Below, one piece after another: positions 603 to 35,850 of a stretch of 35,850 nt of DNA. Position numbers and translations under genes: made by a program. The notes below the pieces were generated by a model. It was not told the origin of the DNA. It made no database searches and saw only the letters and a program-made list of their open reading frames with translations. Source of the DNA: a virus. Positions within the stretch are counted from its first letter, which is position 1. Each line of letters begins with the position of its first letter. Location: the IMG/VR virus record IMGVR_UViG_3300025646_000158, positions 1 through 35,850 of that record; one strand, given 5' to 3'.

Positions 603-1015
603 AAAAACTATTGACCTATACATTAATATTGATTGTATTTTTCCTTGCTTCGTGTAAGTCATTATTTCCCAACGATCCACCAATCACTAAAACAGTAATA
701 GACACAATTCAAGAACCAGTGGAAGTTTCTCTTCCTCTAGAAACTGAAGTGCTCGTTCCTGCTTTAACAAAAGTAAAGACTGTGAAAGAAACACCAGCAC
801 TCACCTCAAATCAAGAAGAAATCATTCTTCCCCCTAAAACAGAAGTAGTTCTGAAAGACCAGACACCAGTAGAATTGCTTAAAACTGAGTCTATAGTTCT
901 TCCAGTAGGAACAAAAGTAGAAACTCAAAAGACTAACTTGTATGCTGTTTTATTATATGCAGGATTAATATTATCTGGAATCTGGTTTTTCATAAATAAA
1001 AAAGAGGTAAAGTAA
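599..1015 (+). CDS. Lipoprotein with C-terminal membrane anchor, candidate unimolecular spanin
   Basis: 138 aa. The N-terminus is a lipoprotein signal: K2-K3, a hydrophobic core of residues 4-17, and lipobox L16-A17-S18-C19. Residues 114-132 form a single transmembrane segment followed by a Lys-rich tail (NKKEVK), so the C-terminus should sit in the cytoplasm. The roughly 95 residues between are Pro/Val/Thr-rich with repeated 'LPxxTEV'-like strands. A lipid-anchored N-terminus plus a C-terminal inner-membrane anchor in about 130 aa is the architecture of u-spanins such as T1 gp11, which link outer and inner membranes and fuse them at lysis. This implies a diderm host. The preceding hydrophobic gene may be its holin partner. 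Its last 41 bases (SGIWFFINKKEVK) are duplicated at 2398-2438. It could instead be an unrelated phage lipoprotein. Confidence 0.75.
   Translation: MKKLLTYTLILIVFFLASCKSLFPNDPPITKTVIDTIQEPVEVSLPLETEVLVPALTKVKTVKETPALTSNQEEIILPPKTEVVLKDQTPVELLKTESIVLPVGTKVETQKTNLYAVLLYAGLILSGIWFFINKKEVK
975..1015 (+). repeat. Direct repeat A, copy 1: 3' end of the spanin-like gene
   Basis: 41 bases covering the last codons of the lipoprotein gene, a CATAAATA box (991-998) and the GAGG ribosome-binding site of the next gene. A near-identical copy lies at 2398-2438, differing only by one missing C and one extra A. Confidence 0.9.
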
Positions 1016-2353
1016 ATGAAATACGAAATTAAAGAGTATTACAAGCAACAACTAATAGATCAGATGATTGAAGAAGGTCGTCTACGAGACATGGTAGGTT
1101 CTGCAATTGAAAAAGGAGCAGAGGTAGTAGGTAAATTTGTCCCACCCATTGCACTATCAGCTGCACTTATCGCTAGTCCACACCTTGCCACACAACCCCA
1201 AGGACGAACGAATGTTGGAAGATCACAAATTAAACAAGTAGAAAAAGAAGGAACACCAGCATCTACTACAACTTCTACTAAAATAACTCAAGGAAAACCA
1301 GGCACTCCTGGAACTGCCGATGACCCAGGAGTACCAGATCTGACTATTAAAATTCCTGATATTCCATCATTAAAAATTCCTTCTTTTAAGATTCCAGGAA
1401 CAGGTTCAAAAGGAAAAGCAGGAACCCCAGCGACTCCAGATACAGTACAAACTGGAACATTTGAAGGATCTTTTACAGGACAAAAAGATCCAAAAACAGG
1501 TGAAGCAAAAGTTAGAGATGGAAGTATTTTACCTGGAGCAGATACATTTCACGTTAAAACTAATGACCGTGGTATGATTGATATGATTCAAAAAAGATCA
1601 GTTCCTGGTTCTATAACACACAAAGCAGCGTCTGAAGCACTCAAGGGTACTGTTGTTCCAGGATCTCCAGCAACTCCTGGTACACCAGCAACTCCTCCAC
1701 TTGCCACTCCATCATTTGAATTGTTTGGTGGCATGAAAGGCAGAACAATTACTATTCAAGGAAGAGAAGCAAAAGCAGGCACTCCTGGAACACCTGGGAC
1801 TCCTAGTACCATGGAAATATCAACAACTACCACTCCTGGCACACCAGCAACTCCTGGTGTCAGGACCGCAGATCATACCAGAGGTATTCCTGATGCGTCT
1901 CTTCATCTGGTTCCAAATCGTTCAGAATATATCAAACCAGAAGAAATTGAACCAGTAGGAACCAAACGAAGAAGAGGATCAACAACTCAACCCCCACAAA
2001 CATCAAACGATGGATCTGTAAGAGTTCCTCCACAAACATCAAACGATGGATCTGTAAGAGTTCCTTCGCCAAGACCAACACCATCACCTACACCATCACC
2101 TACACCATCACCTACACCATCACCATCTCCTACACCAACACCAGAAGATGAAGGAGTCGAAGTGCAGTCGTCTAGGCTAGGTCGTGTTCCCGTAAATAGA
2201 AATCTACTGACTGGTAAAATAACAAGACCAGGAGGAAGAGGAGTAGGATCAAGAACAGTTCCTAGTGGATCATCTGCCGCGAGGCGTGGAAGTGCTCCTT
2301 CAATCATGGATGACTTTGACGTGGTGAATTGGTTTAAAGAAAGATTAAAATAG
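1016..2353 (+). CDS. Pro/Thr/Gly-rich low-complexity protein with capsid-targeting-like N-terminus
   Basis: 445 aa; GAGG lies 8 bases before the ATG, inside repeat A. The N-terminal about 20 residues (KEYYKQQLIDQMIEEG) form an amphipathic helix with an I-x-E site (I18-E19-E20), similar to the next gene's start. Residues about 26-50 are hydrophobic (GAEVVGKFVPPIALSAALIA). Most of the rest is disordered: repeated PGTPGTPATP-like segments, paired 'KIPxxPSLKIPSFKIP' units, two copies of a 12-residue PPQTSNDGSVRV repeat and a (TPSP)n run, then a compact end (MDDFDVVNWFKERLK). I infer a head-packaged or membrane-interacting virion protein; the long Pro/Thr spacer suggests a flexible tether. No enzyme motif is visible. 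The gene is flanked by repeats A and B. Confidence 0.8.
   Translation: MKYEIKEYYKQQLIDQMIEEGRLRDMVGSAIEKGAEVVGKFVPPIALSAALIASPHLATQPQGRTNVGRSQIKQVEKEGTPASTTTSTKITQGKPGTPGTADDPGVPDLTIKIPDIPSLKIPSFKIPGTGSKGKAGTPATPDTVQTGTFEGSFTGQKDPKTGEAKVRDGSILPGADTFHVKTNDRGMIDMIQKRSVPGSITHKAASEALKGTVVPGSPATPGTPATPPLATPSFELFGGMKGRTITIQGREAKAGTPGTPGTPSTMEISTTTTPGTPATPGVRTADHTRGIPDASLHLVPNRSEYIKPEEIEPVGTKRRRGSTTQPPQTSNDGSVRVPPQTSNDGSVRVPSPRPTPSPTPSPTPSPTPSPSPTPTPEDEGVEVQSSRLGRVPVNRNLLTGKITRPGGRGVGSRTVPSGSSAARRGSAPSIMDDFDVVNWFKERLK
1994..2065 (+). repeat. 36-bp tandem repeat, two copies, in coding sequence
   Basis: Two perfect 36-base units (1994-2029, 2030-2065) encode the 12-residue repeat PPQTSNDGSVRV in the low-complexity protein. 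Confidence 0.9.
2081..2122 (+). repeat. 12-bp tandem repeat encoding (TPSP)n
   Basis: About 3.5 copies of the unit ccatcacctaca, coding for alternating Thr-Pro/Ser-Pro. It is a simple-sequence tract likely to vary in length by slippage. Confidence 0.85.
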
Positions 2354-2393
2354 TTAAACAGGAAATATAGTCTTATATAGCGCCGTACACAAA
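2354..2393 (-). repeat. Repeat B, copy 1: displaced 3' end of the ruvC-like gene
   Basis: 40 bases matching 3163-3202 at 39 of 40 positions. Read on the minus strand it encodes CTALYKTIFPV-stop, the same C-terminus (CKALYKTIFPV-stop) as the convergent RuvC-like gene. It is a remnant of that gene's 3' end placed between two plus-strand genes. Confidence 0.9.
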
Positions 2394-2397
2394 CTGG

Positions 2398-2438
2398 CTG
2401 GAATCTGGTTTTTATAAATAAAAAAAGAGGTAAAGTAA
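2398..2438 (+). repeat. Repeat A, copy 2: displaced 3' end of the spanin-like gene
   Basis: 41 bases duplicating 975-1015. Loss of one C turns the CATAAATA box of copy 1 into a perfect TATAAATA late-promoter box here, so the remnant now acts as the leader of the next gene. Confidence 0.9.
2413..2420 (+). promoter_or_regulatory. T4-type late promoter (TATAAATA)
   Basis: An exact TATAAATA box 32 bases upstream of the ATG at 2453. It is followed by a strong AAGGAG ribosome-binding site (2441-2446), six bases from the start codon. It should drive the 237-aa gene late in infection. Confidence 0.75.
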
Positions 2439-2452
2439 TAAAGGAGTCAATT

Positions 2453-3166
2453 ATGAATTACAAAGAATATTTCAAAGAACAATTAGTTGAAGCAATTATG
2501 AAAGATGCATTACCGTTAAACGAATTAAATGTCATGGGTGCATTTAGACAAGGACGGGAATCTGGCGGCATTTTGGGTGGATTGAAAAGTGCATCTTCAG
2601 CATTTGCATCCAATGTAAAATCTAGAGGAGTGGCAGGAGCATTATTACCAAGTGCCGCAATCCGAAGTACTGCCGAAAAAGTAGGCGAAGTAATACAAAG
2701 AGGAGATACGTTAAGCAATGCTGGTAGATCTGGTTTTGTTGATCGTGGTAGATTGGATCAATTTAATAGGCCTGTAGCTAGTAAAAATCCTCTAGAACCA
2801 CAATCTAGACATAAAGGATTTGTAACCCCAACAGGCATTGAACAACGCGGTGCAAATATCAGTGCTACCGATAGGAAACGCGATGAAAATATTAGAGATA
2901 CTGATAAACAAGCAAATGCTTGGTTGCAAACAAAAGGTAGTCAAATACGCAGCGCGGGATTTGGTGCTTTTGATAGATTATCTAAAATAGCAAGTTCTAA
3001 GGGAATAGATCCCAGTGTGGTGGAATCTGGAATACAAACTGGACGAAAAGCACATTACGCTACTAATACATTAAGTACTCCTATGGGCCTTCGACGCGGG
3101 GAACGGACTCCTATGGGGGGAACTGCTGTAAGAATGATGAGAGCAGACAGACAGCAGAATGGTTAA
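2453..3166 (+). CDS. Putative head-cargo protein in the second cassette, function unknown
   Basis: 237 aa, with AAGGAG six bases before the ATG and a TATAAATA late promoter upstream. The first residues (MNYKEYFKEQLVEAIM) align with the previous gene's KEYYKQQLIDQMI, while the bodies share nothing obvious. This N-terminus contains an L-x-E site (L11-V12-E13), as cut by T4-type prohead proteases. The rest is basic, Gly/Ser/Arg-rich and mostly soluble, with no catalytic motif I recognise. I infer a late protein targeted to the prohead and possibly DNA-binding. Its stop codon (3164-3166) overlaps the stop of the convergent RuvC-like gene, and the shared bases belong to repeat B. Confidence 0.8.
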   Translation: MNYKEYFKEQLVEAIMKDALPLNELNVMGAFRQGRESGGILGGLKSASSAFASNVKSRGVAGALLPSAAIRSTAEKVGEVIQRGDTLSNAGRSGFVDRGRLDQFNRPVASKNPLEPQSRHKGFVTPTGIEQRGANISATDRKRDENIRDTDKQANAWLQTKGSQIRSAGFGAFDRLSKIASSKGIDPSVVESGIQTGRKAHYATNTLSTPMGLRRGERTPMGGTAVRMMRADRQQNG

Positions 3167-3202
3167 ACAGGAAATATAGTCTTATATAGCGCCTTACACA
3201 AA
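3163..3202 (-). repeat. Repeat B, copy 2: native 3' end of the ruvC-like gene
   Basis: This is the functional 3' end of the minus-strand RuvC-like gene (encoding KALYKTIFPV-stop); the other copy is at 2354-2393. One mismatch in 40 bases suggests a fairly recent duplication or ongoing homogenisation. Confidence 0.9.
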
Positions 3203-3717
3203 TAGTAAGCATCCACTATATCGGTCACTGGACTCCCAACGTGCGTTTTGTTGGGAGTTATTTCTTGGTGAAGATCAATTCCAGTCTCTTCGTGAAATGC
3301 CTTAACCATTGTTTCCTTGTCGGCATTTCCTTTTCCAGTTGCCAGTTTCTTTGATTTGCTGGGTTCTATGATCTCAACGGGAATGCTCTGTTGGTATAGT
3401 TTATACTTCAGGACTCCAGTATTCTCGGCAATATTAAATACTCTTCCTGTCGCATTGTAGGCATATCCCTCAAGTCCAACTTGATCACATCCAATACAAA
3501 TACGCATTACCCATTCGGATATAGAATCATACCTTTCTGAGTCCTGTGAATAGGGTTCAAATAGTTCCCCATGCACATTCTTCAGAAAGGTCTGACCGTA
3601 CTTCTTTACGTCTGTGAGAAAGTAGCAATTACAATTAGCGAACTTCAACTCTCTCTTTGTATCATATACACAGATTGCTGGACCATTTAAAGAGTAATCA
3701 ATTCCTGCTAGGATCAT
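3163..3717 (-). CDS. RuvC-like Holliday-junction/branch nuclease
   Basis: 184 aa from the ATG at 3717; an upstream extension would add about 27 residues that overlap the neighbouring gene and do not look coding. It shows the RNase-H-fold resolvase pattern: a first-strand Asp in AGIDYSLNGPAICVYD (D7), a Glu in GLEGYAYNATGRV (E83) and a closing Asp pair in SPVTDIVDAYYL (D166, D169), the usual metal-binding acidic residues of RuvC. In T4-like phages such an enzyme would resolve branched DNA before packaging, a role T4 itself gives to the unrelated gp49. It is the last gene of the late minus-strand unit and converges with the plus-strand cassette. A CATAAATA box lies five bases before the ATG and no ribosome-binding site is visible, so the message may be leaderless. 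Confidence 0.85.
   Translation of the reverse strand: MILAGIDYSLNGPAICVYDTKRELKFANCNCYFLTDVKKYGQTFLKNVHGELFEPYSQDSERYDSISEWVMRICIGCDQVGLEGYAYNATGRVFNIAENTGVLKYKLYQQSIPVEIIEPSKSKKLATGKGNADKETMVKAFHEETGIDLHQEITPNKTHVGSPVTDIVDAYYLCKALYKTIFPV
3232..3258 (+). terminator. Possible terminator for the plus-strand operon, inside the antisense ruvC-like gene
   Basis: A perfect 9-bp inverted repeat (ACTCCCAAC / GTTGGGAGT) with a 9-base loop, followed on the plus strand by TATTTCTT. It lies about 65 bases past the last plus-strand stop. On the minus strand there is no following T-run. The tail is only moderately T-rich, so efficiency is uncertain. Confidence 0.4.
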
Positions 3718-3722
3718 ACATG

Positions 3723-3730
3723 TATTTATG
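3723..3730 (-). promoter_or_regulatory. Late-type promoter box (CATAAATA)
   Basis: A one-base variant of TATAAATA with five bases between the box and the ATG at 3717. By T4 late-promoter geometry the transcript would start on that ATG. Confidence 0.45.
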
Positions 3731-3739
3731 ATTCTAACA

Positions 3740-5812
3740 TTATTCCCAGTTGTTAAGTATAAAAGATAAATCCATCGAATCGGTGGTTCCATCTCCATTA
3801 AGGTCGGTTCCCCCAGCCTTACCCCAATTTCCCATTATTTTTGACATCCCTGAAGCATCAAACTTTAGTTCAAATCCAGGAATTCTATCGTAATGTGATT
3901 TTGCTTCAGTTCCTAACCACTTAGTTAGCATACCCAACCTTGCTTGATTGAGTCCATGTCTTGACGGCGAAACCGTATCGTCCCATCCAAGGTGCTGTAT
4001 ACGCTCCTCGTCAGGACACTCACCAAACCTAGTGCTGTAGTCGGATACGGATGTTCCGCTTCCAAGAAGAATCTCACTCAACCATCCCCATGTCTCTCCA
4101 CTCACATAGCGCACATCTCCTGTCGTGTCACGGAGACGCTTGAGAGCGGCATATGGCATCAGGAACGCTCCCGCTGCAATCATGGAGTATATGTCGTTGT
4201 AGAATGACATATCGTCCCAACGAAGGTTCTCGGGTAGCAATACTTTTCCATTCCTGCTGTAGTAATATCTGCCTATGTCGGAGCGATCCTCGTCCACAGT
4301 TCCATTTCTTGCTGCGAAGAGTTCGATGGTCGATGACGCATCAGGTGTTCCGTTGATCCAAGGTCTGTCAAGGATCAAGAAGTCGATGGGATACGATCCA
4401 TTCTTTCCAACGGTGAGAACCTTGTAGTGGGTTGATCCCGCTCCTGCTCCTCCCGTAATCTTAAGATATGCTCCGTAGTAGTTCTCTCTTTTCGTGTGAT
4501 GGTTTGCTGTTGGAATCCAAAACTTGCTCACATTCAACTTGGCGAACTTACCTGTCATTGGAACATAGTCGAACAGGTTTACGCTCTCCACAGTTTCAGC
4601 GGAAGTTACGGTGTACTCTGATTCGGGTTTCCATGTCTGTCGAATGTAGTATCCGAAGTCGGGTTCGTCTGTCACCTGACGGCAAACAAAGTCATCACAG
4701 AACATCAAGTACCCAATGTCTTTATCTGAAAGGTTTGAAACTGCGGTTCCTGTGTGGTGGTTGCGAATGCTAGCATATAGGCTCTTCATTGGTTCGTTAT
4801 TTAACCACCAACCAGCAAGAAGAACCCACGGTTTGATTTCCGCACAACGATGCCCTGCTCCAGATGAGGTATCAATCAGAGATAAAGCACAACCCCATGC
4901 ATCTATTGAATATTGAATCAGTCGATTTCTTGCAAGATCACGCTGCTCTCTGGTATTGCGAGTATTTGTGGCATCTCGTAAAAGAACTGCAAGATATCTT
5001 GAAGCACCATTTCCATAGTATGTTACTGTTGATGTATTAACATTTGGTGCTGTTGAAATTCCATATTGTCCAGCCGAACTTTGGTTGGAAACCACTTCTC
5101 CTTCGTGATATGTTGGAGATGAGAAGTAGTGGTGTGATTCATATGGAATATTTGAGTTGTGTTCCAGATCTGTTTCATCTGTTCTCACGGAAGACAAAGG
5201 AATCGGGTCTGGTCGAGTTGAACCCATCCACTGGAAAGGAGGTCTAAAACAAGGCTCAGATGGGGCTTCAGCAAGCACGGTAAGAACACCGATCCGCTTG
5301 ATTCCTGTTCTCCATCTTCCAATTGAGTTGGGAATGAAGTCGTTTATTGCTTCTCCTTCACTTGGTTCATGCCACATAGATGCTGCGGTGACAATGACAT
5401 CACCCGCAACGAGTGGAGTAGGCAGAACGAGTGCCTGATCATTGTCGTAGTCAGCATCCACCTTTTGTTGTGTTCCAGTATTGTTTCCTGGATAACAGAC
5501 ACGACCATCAAGAAAGTATTTCTGTGAACCCAAGGTTGCAATCTGCTCGTAAGGTCTTGGATCGTTTGGATCGTGATATCTCGACGGCAAGGGATTCTTT
5601 GCCGATCCGTTGATCCATACATCTACAGGTGCAGGGAATCGGGAATTGGTGTGTGTGGTTGTCTTTCTCTCCCGTGCAGGGGAAACTGCGGTAAGAACCG
5701 CACCTTCCTGAACAACTACCCAAGGACTGCCATCCACAAATGTTCCTGAAGAAACCACACCTTCGATGTCCCACTCAAAAAGTGAATCGCCGTAATCTAG
5801 AGTTATCTTCAT
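3740..5812 (-). CDS. Large dockerin-ended virion or surface-acting protein, function unknown
   Basis: 690 aa, starting in an ATGA overlap with the protease gene, with AAAGGA as ribosome-binding site. The N-terminal about 250 residues look beta-rich; the centre (about 265-370) is helical with conserved-looking Trp/His/Cys (AWGCALSLIDTSSGAGHRC, then KPWVLLAGWWL), followed by another mixed region. The C-terminus (about 650-690) is a dockerin-like calcium-binding unit: a degenerate first repeat ending in MGNWG, then DLNGDGTTDSMDLSFILNNW with the D-x-N-x-D-G loop. I do not recognise the main body; a glycan lyase or surface-adhesion protein is a guess. It appears more GC-rich than the flanking fibre genes and may be host-derived. 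Sharing a dockerin with the next gene suggests the two act together or bind the same calcium-dependent partner. Confidence 0.8.
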   Translation of the reverse strand: MKITLDYGDSLFEWDIEGVVSSGTFVDGSPWVVVQEGAVLTAVSPARERKTTTHTNSRFPAPVDVWINGSAKNPLPSRYHDPNDPRPYEQIATLGSQKYFLDGRVCYPGNNTGTQQKVDADYDNDQALVLPTPLVAGDVIVTAASMWHEPSEGEAINDFIPNSIGRWRTGIKRIGVLTVLAEAPSEPCFRPPFQWMGSTRPDPIPLSSVRTDETDLEHNSNIPYESHHYFSSPTYHEGEVVSNQSSAGQYGISTAPNVNTSTVTYYGNGASRYLAVLLRDATNTRNTREQRDLARNRLIQYSIDAWGCALSLIDTSSGAGHRCAEIKPWVLLAGWWLNNEPMKSLYASIRNHHTGTAVSNLSDKDIGYLMFCDDFVCRQVTDEPDFGYYIRQTWKPESEYTVTSAETVESVNLFDYVPMTGKFAKLNVSKFWIPTANHHTKRENYYGAYLKITGGAGAGSTHYKVLTVGKNGSYPIDFLILDRPWINGTPDASSTIELFAARNGTVDEDRSDIGRYYYSRNGKVLLPENLRWDDMSFYNDIYSMIAAGAFLMPYAALKRLRDTTGDVRYVSGETWGWLSEILLGSGTSVSDYSTRFGECPDEERIQHLGWDDTVSPSRHGLNQARLGMLTKWLGTEAKSHYDRIPGFELKFDASGMSKIMGNWGKAGGTDLNGDGTTDSMDLSFILNNWE

Positions 5813-6858
5813 GCTCGTCCTTTCGTGTTGTTGGGATCAATCGGATCCACCGTAGTGGTGTTGAACACAGCATTGGGAGAGAGATCGTAACTTCCCCATT
5901 GTGCTAGTAGTTCTGCCATGTCTGCGGCATCAACCTTTCCATCTCCGTTGAAATCACCAATCTCTGGATTCACTCCCCACGATGCCATGAAGATCGCCAG
6001 ATCCTCTCCGTCCACTACACCGTCTTGATTGAGATCCTGCGGAATGGCTGTCATCTTGTCGTAGGAAACGCTGTATCCGTGTGGAGCCAACTTCTCGTTG
6101 ATATTGTCGATTGTCTCTTGAGGGAATGAAGACCCACCGAACATGAGTCCAAGAAGCAAGGTTTCTCCCTTGTCATTCACCACGAAAGCGGGTGAACCCG
6201 AATCGCCAACGAACACCGCAGGATCTCCCGTGGTAGCATATGCTCCATCGTTCACTCCATCTAGACTGGGGTCGCTGTTCCAACCGATGAATTTCCCATC
6301 AACGAATCTTGCCTGTTTGAAGAGCCTCTTGTAAATCTTGCCATTGGAGTCCTGAACCCAGATTGGAGTTCCACGGGGAATGTAGGCGGCATCCGCGATC
6401 TTGTTGTAGATGTAGAACTCACCCTCTGGAACAGGCTGATCGAACTCAAGAAGTGTCTGATCCCCACCGATGCTCAAGGTCACACCAACAACCTTGACTG
6501 TATGGCGAAGTCCTGACTTGCCAAGAAGAACGATACCACCCGTATTGTCATTTGGATCGGGTCTTGGACCACGGAAGTGCTGACAAACAATCATGTGCTT
6601 TGGAGAAACCAAAACACCACCGTAGGTGCAACAATTCCAGAAGTTTACATTCTCACGGTCAAATTCAAGACCATAAGCAGATCCAGCCAGAGTACAGAAA
6701 TGTCGATTTCTTGCCCGACATCCTGAGAAGTCAGCAATCCCATATGCTTGGCAATCTGGATTATAACCAATAGGTGCTGCTGTTTGAGTTGTCGATGCTA
6801 CTCGGTTGTATTTGTATAGATCGTGAACCTGTGAATTATAGTATTTCAGTATTGCCAT
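5809..6858 (-). CDS. Trypsin-like serine protease with C-terminal dockerin repeats
   Basis: 349 aa. The N-terminal about 270 residues carry a chymotrypsin-fold pattern: GGVLVSPKHMIVCQHF (catalytic His94 in place of the usual AAHC), GGDQTLLEFD (Asp133) and VGDSGSPAFV (Ser220 in GDSGSP). All three triad residues are therefore in order. Residues 275-322 hold two EF-hand-like dockerin repeats (DLNQDGVVDGEDLAIFMASWG and DFNGDGKVDAADMAELLAQWG), each with a D-x-N-x-D-G loop and ending in WG. No signal peptide is visible, so it is probably delivered as a virion component or released at lysis. It could process virion proteins or degrade host surface proteins. It starts within the 3' end of speD, with AGAGGA as ribosome-binding site, and overlaps the 690-aa gene by ATGA. 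Dockerins of this style are common in planctomycete proteins. Confidence 0.85.
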   Translation of the reverse strand: MAILKYYNSQVHDLYKYNRVASTTQTAAPIGYNPDCQAYGIADFSGCRARNRHFCTLAGSAYGLEFDRENVNFWNCCTYGGVLVSPKHMIVCQHFRGPRPDPNDNTGGIVLLGKSGLRHTVKVVGVTLSIGGDQTLLEFDQPVPEGEFYIYNKIADAAYIPRGTPIWVQDSNGKIYKRLFKQARFVDGKFIGWNSDPSLDGVNDGAYATTGDPAVFVGDSGSPAFVVNDKGETLLLGLMFGGSSFPQETIDNINEKLAPHGYSVSYDKMTAIPQDLNQDGVVDGEDLAIFMASWGVNPEIGDFNGDGKVDAADMAELLAQWGSYDLSPNAVFNTTTVDPIDPNNTKGRA

Positions 6859-7237
6859 AAAACATTCCTCTTTCTATAAAGTGTTCTTCGCTAGTTGTAA
6901 ATTCAAAATACTTCTTTGCAAAATTGTAAATTGTAGTTTGATCAAACTTATTACACGAATACACATCTAGGGTAATAAATCTGGAAGGTTCAAGTGAATG
7001 AATTTGTATACCCGATTTGATTAGAGGAACCCAACCACTCACTCCTGCTTTCTCTGGGTATATTTCAACACCTTTATTTCTTGGTCCGTGCATGACTACT
7101 GGCTGACTCATTCTAGTCATACCAATTTCATCTACAAGATTTTCCAAGAATCTATAATGTAGTTCTAAATCATCCGCTGCACCTTCACGACAATGATACA
7201 TGTCTAACAAATAAGAATATCCAAATGGTTTTTTCAT
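6836..7237 (-). CDS. speD: S-adenosylmethionine decarboxylase proenzyme
   Basis: 133 aa, the size of small prokaryotic AdoMet decarboxylases. The proenzyme self-cleaves at a Ser to create a pyruvoyl group, then decarboxylates AdoMet to supply aminopropyl groups for spermidine. The active-site array is intact: S75 in PLIKSGIQIHSLEP, H80, and C95 in LDVYSC. The spacings of 5 and 15 are exactly those of S63/H68/C83 in the Thermotoga maritima enzyme. The residue before the cleavage Ser is Lys instead of the usual Glu. The C-terminus carries the FIERG typical of the family. TTAGGAAA precedes the ATG. It is an auxiliary metabolic gene among structural genes, possibly serving polyamine neutralisation of packaged DNA. 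Its 3' end overlaps the protease start by 23 bases and is partly duplicated at 8945-8971. Confidence 0.85.
   Translation of the reverse strand: MKKPFGYSYLLDMYHCREGAADDLELHYRFLENLVDEIGMTRMSQPVVMHGPRNKGVEIYPEKAGVSGWVPLIKSGIQIHSLEPSRFITLDVYSCNKFDQTTIYNFAKKYFEFTTSEEHFIERGMFYGNTEIL
6869..6895 (-). repeat. speD 3'-end repeat, native copy
   Basis: 27 bases encoding TSEEHFIER near the end of speD and also serving as leader of the protease gene. It matches 8945-8971 at 25 of 27 positions. Confidence 0.85.
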
Positions 7238-15678: not shown

Positions 15679-16791
15679 TCATCCAAATAGGGATTCTAGT
15701 GTTGCTTTTCTTTCGTGCGACCAACCGATTGTATCTAGGATATTGCTCAGTGGGTCAATAAATGCTTTTTCAAATTGTGTTTTGTAATCAATAAACTTAT
15801 CAAGACCAAACTCTTTTGGAAGAACATTGGGAAAGGCAATTACCTGATCCTCTCCTTTGTTTCCTCCAAGTGGATTTGGTTTCTTCAAGTGAAGATACTT
15901 GATCTTATCACCTTCAATGATATCGCGATACTTCTTGTCCAACTTGAATCGCGAGAGATAGTGATTATAGATCAGAGATCCCTTCACATGCATCGGAGTT
16001 GACTTGCGGTAGATTGTCAACTTATCGCGATACTTGTTTAATCCATTCACCGAACGAGGAAATGCGATCTCTTCGGGAGACAGGGAATAGAATTCAGTTT
16101 TACACTTATCCACAAACTCAATCATCTCATCTTCCGTGCTGTTGAGAATGAGATCAATTGCTTCCTTCAGTCTCTTGCGAACTATCTCTGGAGTTGAAGA
16201 ACGAGTCGTTTCAATTCCCATGATTTTGAGTTTTGGTTCAGAATATCTTACTCCTTCTGAATCCAGAACATTCAACATGTACCGTTTCTTCGCAGTCCAG
16301 ATTCCCTTGTCGGCAATCACCTCTCTACCCATGAACATCTTCTGATCATAGGCATTCATGATATCTGAGAGTTCTTCAAACTTCTTTTGAATGAATGGGA
16401 GAATGATCTTCTCACATGCGGTGTCAATGTAATTGATCTTCTTGTCTTTTGGAGCATTCGCTACAAACTTCTTCACCAGACAGTTCAAATTCAGATAGAC
16501 AGAATCTGTATCGGACGCAATGACATAATCAACACCATCCGTTCCCACGGTAGTGTTGATGAAGTCGTTCAACTTTTGACCAATCCACTGAATTGCCAAC
16601 TGACCAGAAAGTGTAATTGCCTCTGCCAATTCGGTGGAATAATATCGGAAGTATTCGTTTCCAATCGCACCATAAGCAGAATTCAGTTGAATCTTTCTTA
16701 CAAGTTGGAAATTATGATACTTGGCAATGTCTTTTTCTGTTTGCTCTTTGAGAGCGAAAAGTTGTTCATCTGTCAGTTTGGTAAGGGTCAC
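15679..16791 (-). CDS. 43B: DNA polymerase (family B, gp43), C-terminal part of a split gene
   Basis: 370 aa, GTG start overlapping the upstream stop as TAGTG. It contains polymerase motif B ([15 protein letters not shown], 32-45) and motif C (ASDTDSVY, catalytic D94 and D96), the KKRYMLN region and the thumb. It ends in KATLESLFG, equivalent to T4 gp43's KASLDFLFG clamp-binding tail. The exonuclease domain and motif A are missing; they are on the gene at 19693-21174, 2.9 kb upstream in the same operon. Together the halves total 863 residues (T4 gp43 is 898), so little is lost. The cut is in the fingers domain between motifs A and B. The two chains must associate to form the active site. Confidence 0.93.
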
Positions 16792-17096
16792 TAATCTGCT
16801 CCATGCTTGATGGGAAGTTTATCAGAAAAGTAGGGAATGTCAAGATCTTTCTTTACCAGAACTGGACCTGCATCTCCATACTTTATCCAATACCCCCGTC
16901 GTATAAGTTCACACATTGCATTGAATTGGTTTATAGTAAATAAGTCCTTGGCATAATCCTTTTCATGAAGGACTATTTCAAGGACTTTATTTTCTATATC
17001 TTTATACCAACTTGTTAGGTAAAAGTATTCGGAATAGCTTATAATCGCCTGCTCCGTCAACCTCTTCAGAACCATCATTTCATATTCAATAGGCAT
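16791..17096 (-). CDS. Hypothetical protein inside the split-polymerase island
   Basis: 101 aa, starting three bases after the Dps-like gene's stop and ending in a TAGTG overlap with the polymerase C-terminal gene. It is rich in Tyr/Leu/Lys with a helical N-terminal two thirds and a short C-terminal segment (WIKYGDAGPVLVKKDLDIPYF). I do not recognise it. It is the gene immediately before the polymerase fragment, so it may be coupled to its translation. Confidence 0.65.
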   Translation of the reverse strand: MPIEYEMMVLKRLTEQAIISYSEYFYLTSWYKDIENKVLEIVLHEKDYAKDLFTINQFNAMCELIRRGYWIKYGDAGPVLVKKDLDIPYFSDKLPIKHGAD

Positions 17097-17098
17097 AA

Positions 17099-17458
17099 TC
17101 AGTGTAGAGTGAGTAGATACTTGGTCTTATTCAATAGTGCCAACATCTCGTCACGAATATTTAAAAGGTCAGTATCTTCTTCTTTGAGATCATTTGGAAG
17201 TTCATTGACTAGATAATTTTCAAAATACTTTATTACTTGCATTGGATGTGCTTTTTCAAATCCAAAGAGTTCTAAAGTTCTTTTTGCTTCTGTATCCTTT
17301 CCGTAGATTCCCATATAGGTTTCAACGAAAGTGTCAATTAAAGCGTCCAATCCTTCATATGCATTTCCAAGTGCTTTGTGTTCCGCATATGAAGCAGTTT
17401 GCCAGTGATGAATTCTTAATTGATTCTGTAAAGTCAAAAGTTTAGTAATACACTCCAT
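17099..17458 (-). CDS. Dps/ferritin-like four-helix protein (DUF5856-like)
   Basis: 119 aa. The N-terminal LLTLQNQLRIHHWQTASYAEHKALG followed by LDALIDTFVETYMG matches the first two helices of small phage Dps-like proteins, with the HHWQT and ID-FVE pattern I associate with DUF5856. Ferritin-fold metal sites (His and Glu in these helices) are plausible, but the chain is too short for a full Dps and its role is unknown. It may bind DNA or metals, or protect DNA during infection. It has its own TATAAATA box 19 bases upstream and a GGAGA ribosome-binding site, so it may be expressed late as well as from the operon. Confidence 0.7.
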   Translation of the reverse strand: MECITKLLTLQNQLRIHHWQTASYAEHKALGNAYEGLDALIDTFVETYMGIYGKDTEAKRTLELFGFEKAHPMQVIKYFENYLVNELPNDLKEEDTDLLNIRDEMLALLNKTKYLLTLH

Positions 17459-17476
17459 AGATCTCTCCTATAGATG

Positions 17477-17484
17477 TATTTATA
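17477..17484 (-). promoter_or_regulatory. T4-type late promoter (TATAAATA)
   Basis: An exact TATAAATA, followed by GGAGA and the ATG at 17458. It overlaps the 3' end of the preceding small ORF and could add late expression of the Dps-like gene and of the polymerase C-terminal half downstream. Confidence 0.65.
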
Positions 17485-17728
17485 ATTTCTTTTTCCAGAC
17501 TCCATCCAAAATAATACCAGAATCGGTAATATCCTCCTGGGTGAACTCTGAGACTTTATAATCGGGTTTGCGCTTAAGACTCTTTGCCAGTTCGTTCATC
17601 TCGTCGCAGCATTCTAGCGCATTTCTTTTCTTTTTGTAGACCAAAGCACCCTTGAATGACTCATTGTTCTTACTGAAATTATCTTCCACAAAAAGATCAG
17701 ATGGGGTCTTTACCGCGTAGTACTTCAA
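17480..17728 (-). CDS. Small hypothetical protein
   Basis: 82 aa with a TTG start that overlaps the upstream stop as TTGA; the first in-frame ATG is about 43 codons later. It is charged, Lys-rich and ends in WKKKL. Not recognised. The compact overlap supports it as a gene. Confidence 0.55.
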   Translation of the reverse strand: MKYYAVKTPSDLFVEDNFSKNNESFKGALVYKKKRNALECCDEMNELAKSLKRKPDYKVSEFTQEDITDSGIILDGVWKKKL

Positions 17729-17976
17729 AGTCCAAGTTCCTCATCAAGTTCAGAAAGACGATCCATTGCCGCGTTTCTCTTTTCTTCTTGTATCTCATCA
17801 AAGCAGTCCCAACCACGCGATTCCGCAATCGCACGGGGATCACCGTACTTTGGGTTATCAAACATCATGGAGTTAAGACGTGCTTCATTTCTACACGCAA
17901 TCCGCCTTGCTTCGTCGCGTTCTGCGGTACGAAACTCCAACTCTTGAACTAATCGTGAAAATGGATCGTCGCTCAC
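17725..17976 (-). CDS. Small helical protein, paralogue of its upstream neighbour
   Basis: 83 aa, GTG start overlapping the upstream stop as GTGA. It contains TAERDEARRIAC and, near the C-terminus, AESRGWDCFDEI. Both motifs recur in the upstream gene (TEERDEARRSCC and MKSRGWDCFKED), so the pair arose by duplication. The N-terminal half is predicted coiled-coil. Function unknown. Confidence 0.65.
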   Translation of the reverse strand: MSDDPFSRLVQELEFRTAERDEARRIACRNEARLNSMMFDNPKYGDPRAIAESRGWDCFDEIQEEKRNAAMDRLSELDEELGL

Positions 17977-18308
17977 TTGCCGTCCTCCTTGAAGCAGTCC
18001 CAGCCACGGGATTTCATGTACTTCATGGCGATATTGTAAAAACGACCGCTCTCCATGCCATCTTTGGTGTCGGCTCCATCAACAATCGCTGCGAACTCAC
18101 AGCAAGAACGCCTCGCCTCGTCGCGTTCTTCGGTGAGTTCTAGAACCTTTTCCGAACGCATATCGCACATGTGGATACGCTCGCTCAACTCATTGCGGAG
18201 GAGTTCGATTGCTCCATATGCCTCGGAGATCAATCGCACAATTTCGTCGGGAAGATCGGTGCGCTTGGTTGCACAACGGAGTTCGTATGCGAGATCTGAA
18301 GTTTTCAT
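17973..18308 (-). CDS. Small helical protein with ERDEARR and SRGWDCF motifs
   Basis: 111 aa from the ATG at 18308, two bases after the 3' end of a tRNA gene. An earlier in-frame start would read through the tRNA (giving 'GSNPTRAI', the T-arm) and is rejected. The middle is helical (IHMCDMRSEKVLELTEERD). The C-terminal SRGWDCFKEDGK and the ERDEARRSCC stretch are shared with the next gene. Function unknown. Confidence 0.65.
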   Translation of the reverse strand: MKTSDLAYELRCATKRTDLPDEIVRLISEAYGAIELLRNELSERIHMCDMRSEKVLELTEERDEARRSCCEFAAIVDGADTKDGMESGRFYNIAMKYMKSRGWDCFKEDGK

Positions 18309-18310
18309 AA

Positions 18311-18383
18311 TAGCGCGAGTGGGATTCGAACCCACACTGTGCTGGACTTGAATCAGCTGACTCTGCCGTTGGTCTACCGCGCC
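18311..18383 (-). tRNA. tRNA with apparent anticodon CAA (Leu by anticodon; identity uncertain)
   Basis: 73 bases fold as a cloverleaf: acceptor GGCGCGG/TCGCGCT (two G-U pairs) with discriminator A, a 3-bp D-stem with GG in the loop, anticodon stem GCTGA/CCAGC with an A-C mismatch next to the loop, loop TTCAAGT, a 5-base variable loop and T-arm GTGGG TTCGAAT CCCAC. CAA would be Leu, but a Leu tRNA should have a long variable arm and A at position 37; here the arm is short and position 37 is G. The HNH gene's last codons lie in its 5' end. Confidence 0.75.
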
Positions 18384-18820
18384 GTGTTTTTATTTTTACC
18401 TTTCCAATTATCAGTCAAAGAATGACAATTTGGACAAAGTAATTGTAAGTTATCGTATTCATTATTTGTTCTATTGCCGTCTTTATGATGAACTTCTAGT
18501 GGAATAACAGATTCACGCCACTCGGTCAATCCACATAATTCACATTTATGTGTTCTTTCTGATATTAGATGTTTTTTGGAACTCTTGTAGGAGTTATATT
18601 GCGACCAATCTTTTAGTTGTTGTCCTTTACTCCACCCCTGTCCAGTCCAATGAGAAGTATCTATTTGATATTCTTGTAAATATTTTTTTACCACATGATA
18701 TGATCCACCAGCTTTATTACTATAACCAAGTTTTTCTAACATTTGTGCTATAGAAAAAACTTGATTTGCATATTCCTGAAATTTATCTTTACCTAATTGT
18801 TTTATTCTATTGTATCTCAT
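18374..18820 (-). CDS. HNH endonuclease, probable homing enzyme in the split-polymerase island
   Basis: 148 aa from the ATG at 18820, with GGAG eight bases upstream; longer starts run into a tRNA. The N-terminal about 80 residues resemble the DNA-binding part of phage HNH enzymes (MLEKLGYSNKAGGSYHVVKK, then IDTSHWTGQGW). The HNH domain has CELCG, PLEVHHKDGNRTNNEYDNL and LCPNCHSLT, that is a zinc-binding Cys set, the catalytic HH-x-DG and the final N/H residues. Such enzymes nick or cut DNA and spread their own gene. Its position between tRNAs inside a split polymerase suggests it caused or exploited the split. Its final codons GCG CGG TAG are also the 5' end of the adjacent tRNA. Confidence 0.88.
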   Translation of the reverse strand: MRYNRIKQLGKDKFQEYANQVFSIAQMLEKLGYSNKAGGSYHVVKKYLQEYQIDTSHWTGQGWSKGQQLKDWSQYNSYKSSKKHLISERTHKCELCGLTEWRESVIPLEVHHKDGNRTNNEYDNLQLLCPNCHSLTDNWKGKNKNTAR

Positions 18821-18862
18821 AGCAGACGCTCCTATACTATATATATTTCGTCTGCTTTTAAG

Positions 18863-18947
18863 TGGGATTGGTGGGATTCGAACCCACAATGTTTCTTATG
18901 TGAGGCATTTTAAGTGCCTTGCGTTTCGCCAGTTTCGCCACAATCCC
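18863..18947 (-). tRNA. tRNA-Leu, anticodon TAA
   Basis: 85 bases: acceptor GGGATTG/CAATCCC with discriminator A, anticodon stem AGGCA/TGCCT with loop CTTAAAA (anticodon TAA, A37), an extended variable arm of about 15 bases as expected for Leu, and T-arm GTGGG TTCGAAT CCCAC. It reads UUA/UUG codons. Confidence 0.92.
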
Positions 18948-18951
18948 GTAA

Positions 18952-19022
18952 CTACCCCGCCTAGATTCGAACTAGGAAAAAGAGAACCAAAATCTCCTGT
19001 GATACCGTTTCACCACGGGGTA
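18952..19022 (-). tRNA. tRNA-Gln, anticodon TTG
   Basis: 71 bases: acceptor TACCCCG/CGGGGTA with discriminator G, D-stem GTG/CAC, anticodon stem GGAGA/TCTCT with loop TTTTGGT (anticodon TTG), a 4-base variable loop and T-arm CCTAG TTCGAAT CTAGG. It reads CAA/CAG. Confidence 0.92.
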
Positions 19023-19028
19023 ACTTTA

Positions 19029-19118
19029 TTATGCTCTTGCCAACTTACGAGCTCTTCGCTTACGACTTCCCAACTTACGTCTACGACCAAATTTACGATG
19101 TGGTGTTTTTCTACTCAT
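19029..19118 (-). CDS. Tiny Arg/Lys-rich basic protein (29 aa)
   Basis: 29 aa (MSRKTPHRKFGRR, then RKLGSRKRRARKLARA), about half Arg/Lys. AGGA, located at the end of the TrmH-family gene, is correctly spaced eight bases before the ATG. The protein contains three CGT-AAG (Arg-Lys) pairs. The composition is like a small ribosomal protein or a nucleic-acid-binding peptide. Its place between an RNA methyltransferase and a tRNA cluster suggests an RNA- or ribosome-related role. No family can be named. Confidence 0.6.
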   Translation of the reverse strand: MSRKTPHRKFGRRRKLGSRKRRARKLARA

Positions 19119-19123
19119 AATAA

Positions 19124-19669
19124 TTATCCTACTGTGTTTGAAACGAGTGAGTACATTGCGATTCCACTCGCAGTACCTACATTCAGACTTCTGACACTTC
19201 CGTATTGCTTAATATATAGCAGATCATCACAGATGTCAAGAAGTTCCTTTGGAATTCCAAATTGTTCCTGTCCAAGAACAAGAACATAATGAGCGTTTGA
19301 GTTCCAACTATATTCATCAATTGGAAACGAACCAGGAATGTTATCCATTCCTATAATTCTGACTGTACCGTAGGTTCCTTTGAGGATCTTGATTTCGTTC
19401 TCAAGATCCTCAAAGGTACGGCAATGTCCAAAATGCGTATAGTGATGAGTTCCAACCGTACCACGGCGGTCGTACTTCTTTGAACCGTAAAGAATTACCT
19501 TCTTCGCAAGGAACGCATTGGCATTGCGAATAACTGTAGCAATGTTGAAATCATTATAAAGATTGCTACAAACAACAGAAAAATTATTCCGTCTTGTATC
19601 CAAGTCCGCAAGTATCGCTTCATGCTTCCAGTAGTGGTAATGGTCAATCACGTTACGGGTTTCCGACAT
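19124..19669 (-). CDS. SpoU/TrmH-family RNA 2'-O-methyltransferase
   Basis: 181 aa from the ATG at 19669; a longer TTG start would lie inside the promoter. All three SPOUT signatures are present: motif 1 FNIATVIRNANAF (Asn/Arg), motif 2 HYVLVLGQEQFGIPKELL (the Glu-x-x-G-x-P segment), and motif 3 LNVGTASGIAMYSL, which form the trefoil-knot AdoMet site. These enzymes methylate ribose in tRNA (for example Gm18 or position 34) or rRNA. It is immediately upstream of three tRNA genes, so phage tRNAs are an attractive substrate, although host RNA is equally possible. A perfect sigma-70 promoter ends six bases before the ATG. Confidence 0.88.
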   Translation of the reverse strand: MSETRNVIDHYHYWKHEAILADLDTRRNNFSVVCSNLYNDFNIATVIRNANAFLAKKVILYGSKKYDRRGTVGTHHYTHFGHCRTFEDLENEIKILKGTYGTVRIIGMDNIPGSFPIDEYSWNSNAHYVLVLGQEQFGIPKELLDICDDLLYIKQYGSVRSLNVGTASGIAMYSLVSNTVG

Positions 19670-19675
19670 GCGTAT

Positions 19676-19704
19676 ATTATACCACAAATGGGTCAGTCTG
19701 TCAA
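19676..19704 (-). promoter_or_regulatory. Perfect consensus sigma-70 promoter at the polymerase split
   Basis: TTGACA (19704-19699), a 17-base spacer and TATAAT (19681-19676) on the minus strand, an exact match to consensus. The -35 box lies in the final codons of the polymerase N-terminal gene. Standard geometry puts +1 at 19669, the A of the TrmH-family gene's ATG. Confidence 0.9.
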
Positions 19705-21174
19705 GCCCCTACGGCGCAATTCCTCGTTGATGTCTTCGAGCATTTTCTTTGACTCAATCATTTTGTTTTTGAACATTTTACGATCTTTGTACATGCTGTC
19801 CATGAGTTCAGGAAGAAATCCCCGAATATCTTTTCGGTATGTGGTTCCGTTGGCAGCAGTTGACAGATTCTTCTTCTTATTATCTTCAAGAATTTCTGTA
19901 CATACGCTAGATTGCTTCAACAGACCCTCTGGGGAAATTGAAGCACGAATTCCATCATCTGTCATCGTCTCTGGAGAGATATTATACTGCATGATGAGAT
20001 GTGGATACAGAGAGTTCAAGTCAAAACTCACCACCCAGTCATGGAATCCAACGATTGGTTCCTTGACATATGCACCCGCATATTGCTCATTCTTTCTTGA
20101 TTTCTTCTTTGGTGGAATCGCAATTCCTCTCTGAAGCAGATCGTTGTAGATAATGACATCCCATGTACGAACCTGAGAAAAGACATCTGAATAATTCACA
20201 CCCGCAGAATATGCAAGTGCGATTGCGAGTTCAATCAGACGAAGTTTATCTTCCAGTTTCTGAACCAGTTCAACGTCGCGAATATTATAGGCAATGAACT
20301 TCTGAAAGTCCTTCTTGTAGAACTCTGTAATACTTTCGAACTCTGCATATGAGAGTTTCTTCTCTCCAAGTTCTACATACGAAATATGATTCAGACTGTA
20401 CGATTCTTGATTCGTATATGTAAAGGTCTTGTAGACCTCGTAATAGTCAAGAGTGGAAATGCCGATCAGATCGAACGCACTCTCTTCCTTACCCTTGCGA
20501 TTGATTCTCTTTTCTTTGATAATACCCCAAGGAGAAAGCAACTTGACATACTTTCGTCCAAGCACCTTTCCGATGCGATTTACAAGATAGGGAATGTCAA
20601 AGAAACGAATGTTCCAACCCGATATGACATCAGGATAATTGTCGCTGAAATACTTGACAAAATCTCTGAGAAGTTTTGCTTCTTCCTGATACTCAAAGAC
20701 CTTGATGTCTTCTTCGGTGGAGAATGTACCCAAGCAGAATGTTGCTTTTCCTGTTCTAGTTGACGATACAGTGATTGCAAGGACTTCCTCTTCTGGATTG
20801 TCAATGGACGGAAACCCGTTCTCTGACGCAGTTTCAATGTCGATGTACATGATGTCGATCTTGGAGAAGTCATAGTTATGCGTACCACCGTAGTGCTTTG
20901 CTAGAAACTGATACTCTTGTTGAATCTCACCGTGAATTTCAAATCCAGGAATTGTCGCATACTTCTCAACGAACTCTTTGTATTGTTCGTGATTATCAAA
21001 CCTCATCTCCATCAGAGGATCACCAATGATGGATTTGAGATCGCATCTTCCACTTGACGGAAGATAAACAGAAGGACTGTGTTCCTTCTCAGAATACACA
21101 GTCTTTCCGTTTTCATCCTTCTCAGCAAGAAGGATCCCTTTATAGTTGTAATATGCGTTTGTGTAAAATCTCAT
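19693..21174 (-). CDS. 43A: DNA polymerase (family B, gp43), N-terminal part of a split gene
   Basis: 493 aa, starting in an ATGA overlap with the upstream gene. It holds the 3'-5' exonuclease motifs: Exo I MYIDIETASENG (D112, E114), Exo II GWNIRFFDIPYL (N188, D193) and Exo III YNIRDVELV (Y296, D300). Polymerase motif A FDLNSLYPHLI (D385) follows, and the chain ends at RRRGLTD in the fingers region. Motifs B and C are on the gene at 15679-16791. No intein-like sequence is present at the junction, so the parts are expected to assemble non-covalently. Split gp43 genes are known in some T4 relatives, typically with homing endonucleases nearby, as here. Confidence 0.93.
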   Translation of the reverse strand: MRFYTNAYYNYKGILLAEKDENGKTVYSEKEHSPSVYLPSSGRCDLKSIIGDPLMEMRFDNHEQYKEFVEKYATIPGFEIHGEIQQEYQFLAKHYGGTHNYDFSKIDIMYIDIETASENGFPSIDNPEEEVLAITVSSTRTGKATFCLGTFSTEEDIKVFEYQEEAKLLRDFVKYFSDNYPDVISGWNIRFFDIPYLVNRIGKVLGRKYVKLLSPWGIIKEKRINRKGKEESAFDLIGISTLDYYEVYKTFTYTNQESYSLNHISYVELGEKKLSYAEFESITEFYKKDFQKFIAYNIRDVELVQKLEDKLRLIELAIALAYSAGVNYSDVFSQVRTWDVIIYNDLLQRGIAIPPKKKSRKNEQYAGAYVKEPIVGFHDWVVSFDLNSLYPHLIMQYNISPETMTDDGIRASISPEGLLKQSSVCTEILEDNKKKNLSTAANGTTYRKDIRGFLPELMDSMYKDRKMFKNKMIESKKMLEDINEELRRRGLTD

Positions 21175-34225: not shown

Positions 34226-35089
34226 TTATGGTACTACACTCTTGTATGGATGGTCTACTGGCAAGTTTGATGTCAATCCCCATTTGTGGGCAAGATAGCC
34301 TTCTATGAGTTGGCGGTCTTGCGTCGTAGCGACTGACGGAACAATAATTAACTCAGAAATCTTTCCATCAAAGTATCGGCCAAAAAATGACATGGCTCTG
34401 CCGCTTCCAACATACCCGCCGTCCAATACTGAAAAATTCGACAAACTTTGCGTGGTTCCAGTACCGATTAGTGTGCCGTTTGTATAAGATAACTGTACAG
34501 CACCACCTGTAACACAGTTAATATAGGGGGCATCTGAGATTACGCTTACTGGCGATGGGCGATTTGCTACATATCCAAGCTGGCTGTACATTTTATTATC
34601 AGTCCATCTAGGTATATCCGCCAAACCATTGCTCTCTTGTTGGTTTCCTATACCAAATGAAATTTCAGTACGACCGTTTGCATTATCTCGCTTTGCAACA
34701 ATAAACCAACTCTGACTTACAGAATTAAGATCTGATACGCTAGACAATACCAGATCGTCATCAGCACCGTCAAAGTCCAACGCAGGCTTGTTATTTAATC
34801 CAGTCGAGGAGTACAGGGGTTGTGCAGTACCTGTTTGCGTTGCATTTCTGCCATTCCCACTCTTGTCATTCCATTGACTTACATTGCTTCCGTTCAATGT
34901 AATTGTAGAAGCATCAGCAGCATCAAACCACAATGCTGTTGTAATTTCTGCGGGAGTCCATGTCGAAGAATAGAAGAAATTATCGAGATTCCTCTCCATG
35001 TAATGCTTGAGCATCGGGATCGTTCCTGCCTGTGTTCGGCGTTGATCCGTTGTTCCGTTGTATCCTGAATTGAGTCTCCATCTTCTCAT
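34226..35089 (-). CDS. LamG/ConA-like tail-fibre protein, second paralogue
   Basis: 287 aa from the ATG at 35089, which overlaps the collagen gene's stop as ATGA. It lacks the FP…WDG attachment module of its paralogue and begins at [20 protein letters not shown], the equivalent of the paralogue's residue about 50. [44 protein letters not shown] and [20 protein letters not shown] follow, again a LamG-like sandwich. The missing N-terminal part may be supplied by the collagen-like protein encoded just upstream. Confidence 0.75.
34234..34263 (-). repeat. 30-bp direct repeat in paralogous fibre genes (copy 2)
   Basis: Identical to 33188-33217, at the 3' end of the second LamG-like gene. Confidence 0.85.
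35022..35062 (-). repeat. 41-bp direct repeat in paralogous fibre genes (copy 2)
   Basis: Matches 34000-34040 with one difference, near the 5' end of the second LamG-like gene. Confidence 0.85.
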
Positions 35090-35850
35090 AGGAAGAACCA
35101 TCCTCTCTTGTAGTCAACGATGGAGACAACCGCACCCGTCACTCCATTGACGGACTCGACATAATCACCGACTGGGCCTGTTGCTCCTGTTGCTCCTGTG
35201 GCTCCATTAGCACCATCGACACCCGTAGCACCTTGTGGTCCAAATGGTTCTACCCAATAGTCACCCACACCATCGGTGATGTATACGAATACATTTCCTG
35301 ATGTGGTGTTGAACCACATATCTCCATAAGTTGCTCCTGAAGGGGCAGAACCAGATGCGGTGAATGTTATTGCTCCATCAACACCAGTTGGACCTTGAAT
35401 CCCCTGAATACCTTGTTCTCCAGTAGCACCAGTTGGACCTTGAATTCCTTGAATTCCTTGATCGCCTTGAGGACCAGTAGCACCAGTTACACCTTGAATA
35501 CCTTGTTCACCAGTTGGACCCGTTGGTCCAGTTGCTCCAGTAGCACCAGTTGGACCTTGAATTCCTTGATCACCAGTTGGACCTTGAATTCCTTGATCGC
35601 CTTGAGGACCAGTTGCTCCAGTAGCACCAGTTGGACCTTGAATTCCTTGTTCTCCAGTAGCACCAGTTGGACCTTGAATTCCTTGTTCTCCAGTAGCACC
35701 AGTTGGACCTTGAATTCCTTGTTCTCCAGTAGCACCAGTTGGACCTTGAATTCCTTGTTCTCCAGTAGCACCAGTTGGACCTTGAATTCCTTGTTCTCCA
35801 GTAGCACCAGTTGGACCTTGAATTCCTTGTTCTCCAGTAGCACCAGTTGG
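35086..35850 (-). CDS. Collagen-like tail-fibre protein (5' end beyond the window)
   Basis: Open in one frame from the window edge to the stop at 35088-35086 (254 codons plus stop seen). From base 35850 it reads [12 protein letters not shown] repeats (Gly-x-y), then less regular collagen units, a spacer ([20 protein letters not shown]), [20 protein letters not shown], a further Gly-x-y run ([14 protein letters not shown]) and the end [20 protein letters not shown] then WFFL. The '[15 protein letters not shown]' unit is common in phage fibres. An internal ATG at 35319 is not the true start because the frame continues upstream. It is coupled by ATGA to the LamG-like gene, which may complete the fibre. 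Confidence 0.8.
35635..35850 (-). repeat. Six perfect 36-bp tandem repeats coding for collagen-like units
   Basis: Units start at 35635, 35671, 35707, 35743, 35779 and 35815, all identical, each encoding [12 protein letters not shown]. The array runs off the window end, so the true copy number is unknown. Degenerate copies continue down to about 35400. Confidence 0.95.

Follow-up and report, generated by a model that had tools for sequence, protein, structure and literature searches.

The stretch analysed here (the window) is a 35.85-kb piece of a T4-like phage encoding a RuvC-like resolvase, a DnaB-like helicase, a family B DNA polymerase and ribonucleotide reductase. Nucleotide comparison with named phages revealed no close relative of the window and no similarity to any of them in the interval described below. 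Its left end carries, on the plus strand, the 3′ end of a holin-like gene (1–102), which ends in ...SVVGFYFGAAAAGNKT, a motif that also terminates a gene of about 144 aa upstream of the spanin gene in relatives. A 167-aa gene (99–602, +) occupies the gap between the holin-like and spanin-like genes. It is followed by the gene for a 138-aa u-spanin-like lipoprotein (599–1015, +), with the lipobox LASC and a C-terminal membrane helix. Profile searches with this protein gave no match; homologs were found with E values down to 1.5e-15, a holin-like gene lies nearby and the neighbourhood is conserved. Two cargo genes follow, one of 445 aa with Pro/Thr-rich repeats (cargo 1; 1016–2353, +) and one of 237 aa (cargo 2; 2453–3166, +). 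The right anchor is the convergent gene for the RuvC-like resolvase (3163–3798, −; real start probably 3717), whose match to phrog_159 (E = 1.3e-32) spans most of the protein and whose stop overlaps that of cargo 2 in TTAA.

The minus strand of the window holds several other features. A 349-aa protein (5809–6858) combines a GDSGSP serine-protease-like motif with a dockerin type I domain at its C-terminus (above the cut-off for PF00404, E = 9.1e-07), and the adjacent 690-aa gene (3740–5812) has a similar ending, DLNGDG..DSMDLSFILNNW. Such dockerin-type endings are unusual for a phage and may hint at a planctomycete-like host. An S-adenosylmethionine decarboxylase gene (6836–7237; PF02675, E = 2.4e-15) adjoins the dockerin and tail-like genes. 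The DNA polymerase (15679–21174) is encoded in two ORFs (19693–21174 and 15679–16791), split by about 2.9 kb holding an HNH endonuclease (18374–18889) and a SpoU-type RNA methylase (19124–19687). A gene with collagen-like repeats (35086–35850) runs past the window end.

The two cargo genes are bracketed by copies of the neighbouring gene ends. The 3′ end of the spanin-like gene (A1, 975–1015, +) recurs between them as A2 (2398–2438, +), with 40 of 42 aligned positions identical (95%), one base lost and one gained; without gaps, identity is 88%. Likewise, the 3′ end of ruvC (B2, 3158–3202, +) recurs as B1 (2349–2393, +), identical at 43 of 45 positions and at 39 of 40 in the core. B1 and A2 are separated by four bases, CTGG (2394–2397, no strand), which may be filler or a slippage copy. 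When repeats were scored with the low-complexity part of the 445-aa gene omitted, the top direct repeat here reached 41 and the highest value among 100 dinucleotide-preserving shuffles was 18. The A and B repeats are real and far above chance, and the alignments and shuffles bear out the initial annotation, which had put A at about 95% and B at 39/40. When A, B and the junction were folded as RNA, no structure was better than in shuffles, and A and B contain no inverted repeat, ruling out a stem-loop or terminator role.

Native and displaced copies can be told apart. A Lys kept by all aligned RuvC relatives is encoded at CTT in B2; B1 reads CGT there, indicating that B2 is the authentic end of ruvC. 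A1 completes the lipoprotein reading frame, and in A2 the loss of a C breaks that frame and leaves the copy noncoding. A1 and B2 are therefore native, and B1 and A2 displaced. The same lost C converts CATAAATA, found at 991–998 in A1, into an exact TATAAATA (2413–2420, +), 40 nt before the start of the 237-aa gene. These details bear on whether the tandem is an assembly or amplification chimera of two strain variants, as might be feared of a metagenome contig whose junction recurs in no relative. We consider this very improbable: the copies differ at several positions and the B1–A2 junction contains at most 4 bp of shared sequence, so that a k-mer assembler would not misjoin them, and the decay of the A2 frame, which yields a perfect promoter motif, fits evolution in place.

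The motif TATAAATA, which we take to be the T4 late promoter consensus, occurs exactly six times in the window against 1.64 expected, a count reached by none of 100 shuffles. Exact or one-off sites lie 24–60 nt upstream of several putative minus-strand tail/structural genes and also precede both cargo genes; from the T4 consensus, we infer that these sites have promoter activity. A2 had been proposed to be a functional leader carrying a perfect late promoter: the motif is indeed exact, and its function would follow from the consensus. Exact copies also stand ahead of cargo genes in relatives (L071, L075, L127, L135, L136, L138, L148 and L151). In L127, the motif lies within the last spanin-like codons, and a 219-aa gene starts 27 nt farther on; this placement parallels A1 of the window with its CATAAATA. 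In the L071 clade, one copy follows the spanin stop and lies 13 nt ahead of the cargo start, and a second lies before or within the end of the gene that precedes the second cargo. Overall, an exact motif accompanied 10 of 42 non-lysis genes in such intervals compared with 11 of 198 genes elsewhere, a descriptive count since the motif was picked with the data in view and the loci are related.

As the initial annotation had stated, the two cargo proteins resemble each other only at their starts; the resemblance covers about the first 20 residues (about 16 in that annotation). At the DNA level, similarity runs from A into both gene starts (72% over 109 bp), and beyond A it amounts to a weak likeness of the leader peptides. 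The gene starts differ: the ATG of the 445-aa gene immediately follows the stop codon of the spanin-like gene; the 237-aa gene has its own ribosome site, TAAAGGAG. Starts resembling a capsid-targeting sequence (CTS-like) are present in the 167-aa protein (MKSFKQYLRE/N), in cargo 1 (MKYEIKEYYKQQLIDQMIEE, an atypical leader) and in cargo 2 (MNYKEYFKEQLVE/A), and putative L/I-x-E-type sites lie near each N-terminus (slashes): LRE/N in the 167-aa, LVE/A in the 237-aa and IEE/G or IKE/Y in the 445-aa protein. Neither cargo protein had relatives in scans of viral contigs, in tblastn against named phages, in Pfam or in PHROGs, and phmmer found no homolog among 6988 ORFs of the relatives; the role proposed below thus draws on about 20 residues of each. 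An AF2 model of the 237-aa protein alone was uninformative (pLDDT 47.5, pTM 0.21), and no fold search was based on it. Residues 64–159 of the 167-aa protein match phrog_23674 (E = 2.8e-10). The body of this protein (residues 64–158) is common to jumbo phages of 355–378 kb infecting Erwinia, Serratia and Cronobacter, where it lacks the leader region.

To compare the interval across relatives, we gathered contigs by a ribonucleotide reductase scan and a RuvC alignment scan. Together these yielded some 100 distinct stretches that lie downstream of ruvC; a holin-like gene was recognisable in 62 of them and in the window. The distance from the holin-like stop to the ruvC stop ranged from 248 to 2880 bp in the relatives and was 3060 bp in the window. 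In most relatives, the spanin-like lipoprotein gene abuts or overlaps ruvC, leaving the slot empty; in a minority of the roughly 60 related contigs, one to three additional genes separate the u-spanin-like gene from the convergent ruvC. In L071, L135, L136, L138, L146, L148 and L151, the occupants are a DUF6321-type gene, whose leader reads MRSFLEFLIE or MRSFLQYLTE, followed by a repeat-rich gene of 58–579 aa. Further occupied slots include those of L074, L078, L163, L114, L119, L127, L038 and L139, with three leader genes in tandem in L119. The same neighbours thus enclose zero, one, two or three different genes, which gives good support to the exchangeable slot postulated initially. Many of the occupants open with a CTS-like peptide that ends in L/I-x-E. 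Relatives with the same two cargo genes and no A2 or B1 remnant were also looked for, and neither gene was found elsewhere. The A–B bracket, predicted to recur together with a variable gene number, did not: copies of the ruvC end were sought in 100 other intervals, and the window alone has one. A scan with the A element gave no match, and the exact matches of the B element, in five contigs, were all discarded as unrelated.

Several occupants are noteworthy in their own right. The ruvC-abutting gene of L071, L135, L138, L141, L146, L148 and L151 belongs to one family whose members vary in length between 58 and 579 aa because internal repeats have expanded. The genes abutting ruvC in L038 and L139 encode secreted-looking proteins of 208–211 aa with a hydrophobic C-terminal stretch and RRR, a PEP-CTERM-like sorting signal; they had no Pfam or NCBIfam match. 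In L047, L121 and L122, the last 570–590 bp or so before the ruvC stop, after the lipoprotein gene, hold no convincing gene on either strand and are possibly a decayed slot occupant.

We mapped occupancy onto a RuvC tree of 67 rows (23 occupied, 41 empty), a quick tree that does not separate gain from loss. Nine changes were needed, at least six of them forced by well-supported (starred) branches. The window groups with seven empty relatives, the nearest being L023, and nests among loci whose slot is empty (L016–L024). Its cargo was most simply gained in its own lineage.

Such a pattern might also be produced by unrelated late genes piling up in a tolerant gap between convergent genes, with an incidental likeness of leaders and proteins that are not packaged. 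Some occupants do lack a CTS-like start (L038, L139, L171 and the second gene of the L071 clade), and the regular expression used for the leader is loose: it matched 14 of 42 non-lysis interval genes and 28 of 198 genes elsewhere, counts that are descriptive only, because the pattern was chosen after viewing the data and the members are related. We nevertheless regard incidental accumulation as rather unlikely, given the strong starts of the MKSF/MRSF-xxYLTE type joined to unrelated bodies in L071, L074, L078, L114, L119, L149 and L151, and given that the tandem members are alike in their leader only. Other CTS-like genes occur in the holin–spanin gap of L127, L134 and L149.

Pairs of full and empty loci place the apparent joins at gene ends. 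L114 is collinear at 78% with L035/L112 up to the spanin end, where it has about 390 bp of extra DNA with a 136-aa CTS-like gene (MKTFKQYLYE...), after which ruvC resumes at 89–91%. Over the 2.8 kb that lead to the holin end, L149 and L026 share 99% identity; L149 then has a clean 1.45-kb insert between holin and spanin genes, carrying a 386-aa CTS-like gene and a 95-aa gene. Because this insert sits in the holin–spanin gap, which in the window holds the 167-aa gene, that gap is a second slot. L127 forms another such pair with L149/L026. Repeats were seen in two relatives: compared with L078, L074 has an additional CTS-like gene with a 32-nt copy of the leader-coding start on either side, in direct repeat, and L119 has 30–38-nt direct repeats of gene starts. 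Together with the full and empty pairs, these loci support exchange by recombination in relatives, here via repeated gene starts. The window repeats are instead the neighbours' gene ends, a form absent from the 100 other intervals.

Taken together, the data show a polymorphic slot that lies between the u-spanin-like gene and ruvC, with content that varies among relatives, late-promoter motifs and, in the window, bracket repeats. We think it likely that this slot carries late-expressed cargo genes whose products probably enter the head through a CTS-like leader and are injected, and that the tandem in the window arose by an out-of-register join. In the proposed scheme, the 3′ end of the preceding gene would hold a late promoter, the prohead protease would cut the leader at L/I-x-E, and the cargo would travel in the head and be delivered with the DNA, perhaps to act against host defence. 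The join would have placed the ruvC end of one unit (B1) beside the spanin end of another (A2), and the A2 copy, freed of coding constraint, could then have become the exact late promoter serving cargo 2.

The event behind this arrangement was most likely either recombination of two genomes with one cargo each, or a tandem duplication after which one body was exchanged; either origin requires that a ruvC end was once joined illegitimately to a spanin end. The initial annotation proposed a tandem duplication with replaced bodies or serial cargo capture at a fixed site. The bracket copies are there, and a two-genome, out-of-register join accounts for them in fewer steps. In its strict form, the duplication would have copied the whole A–gene–B interval within one genome, after which one body was replaced through flanking homology. 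The about equal divergence of the A and B copies (4–5%), as expected from one event, and the matching end points of the unit in both copies speak for it. We nevertheless doubt it, since it invokes two events where one suffices and no trace of a common body is left; moreover, homology ends with A and cargo 2 is preceded by a ribosome site of its own, both pointing to a gene that arrived separately. Had duplication occurred, these last two features would mark where the body exchange ended. We therefore favour the join of two genomes, a single event that yields the gene order, the different bodies and the slightly different A and B alleles. As no relative carries the A–B bracket, the mechanism of the tandem is drawn from one genome. 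More speculatively, A–cargo–B might form a self-contained late-expression cassette in which the neighbours' ends provide homology arms and the spanin end doubles as promoter; a large uncultured branch of T4-like phages could in this way swap and stack injected-protein cargo where the lysis genes meet ruvC. We put this forward tentatively.

The packaging step is modelled on T4, whose internal proteins carry a short capsid-targeting sequence at the N-terminus; it takes them into the prohead and is cleaved off by gp21 after L/I-x-E (PMC9026906). The T4 proteins Ip1, Ip2 and Ip3 are restriction inhibitors with mutually unrelated bodies, each blocking a different GmrSD restriction enzyme (PMC12373910). 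No prohead protease was found in the 36-kb window, as expected with the head genes lying outside it; the prohead protease family PF03420 is present in the three longest-covered relatives, those in which head genes are covered. With this protease in relatives and L/I-x-E-type sites near the N-termini, packaging and injection of the 167-, 237- and 445-aa proteins are plausible. If this is true, a large uncultured group of T4-like phages would have exchangeable internal head proteins as T-even phages do, and a simple neighbourhood search at one fixed place, the gap separating the u-spanin-like gene from ruvC, would collect proteins that are probably injected for host takeover or counter-defence. 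The window would then be a likely intermediate of gene stacking, with a scar composed of gene ends from both neighbours, of which one is now promoter-like.

The slot extends a known kind of locus, the polymorphic internal-protein loci; the B1–A2 scar is seen in no relative. As described in two papers (PMC12373910, PMC3012670), the T-even loci are, like the slot, polymorphic in T4-like phages, varying in gene number and identity; their members share only a short N-terminal leader joined to unrelated bodies, to which the CTS-like starts with putative L/I-x-E sites may correspond; and repeats around the genes can serve recombination, for which A/B and the start repeats of L074 and L119 are the counterparts here. 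The slot differs in sitting at the holin/u-spanin/ruvC boundary, in having a late-type promoter motif within the upstream gene end and no early promoter with an inverted repeat, and, in the window, in having bracket repeats made of neighbouring gene ends. The T-even loci are reportedly flanked by an early promoter with an inverted repeat. The window had also been likened to mobile regulatory cassettes, the PeSL cassettes of T4-type phages (early promoter plus stem-loop). It shares with them a short regulatory sequence repeated beside exchangeable genes; the likeness stops there, because A and B form no stable stem-loop and the motif is of the late rather than the early type. Finally, the slot resembles the accessory-gene hotspots of tailed phages (anti-defence islands) in its fixed anchors and variable ORFan content but, unlike in those hotspots, many of its occupants carry a packaging-like leader and would thus act from the virion instead of being expressed after infection.
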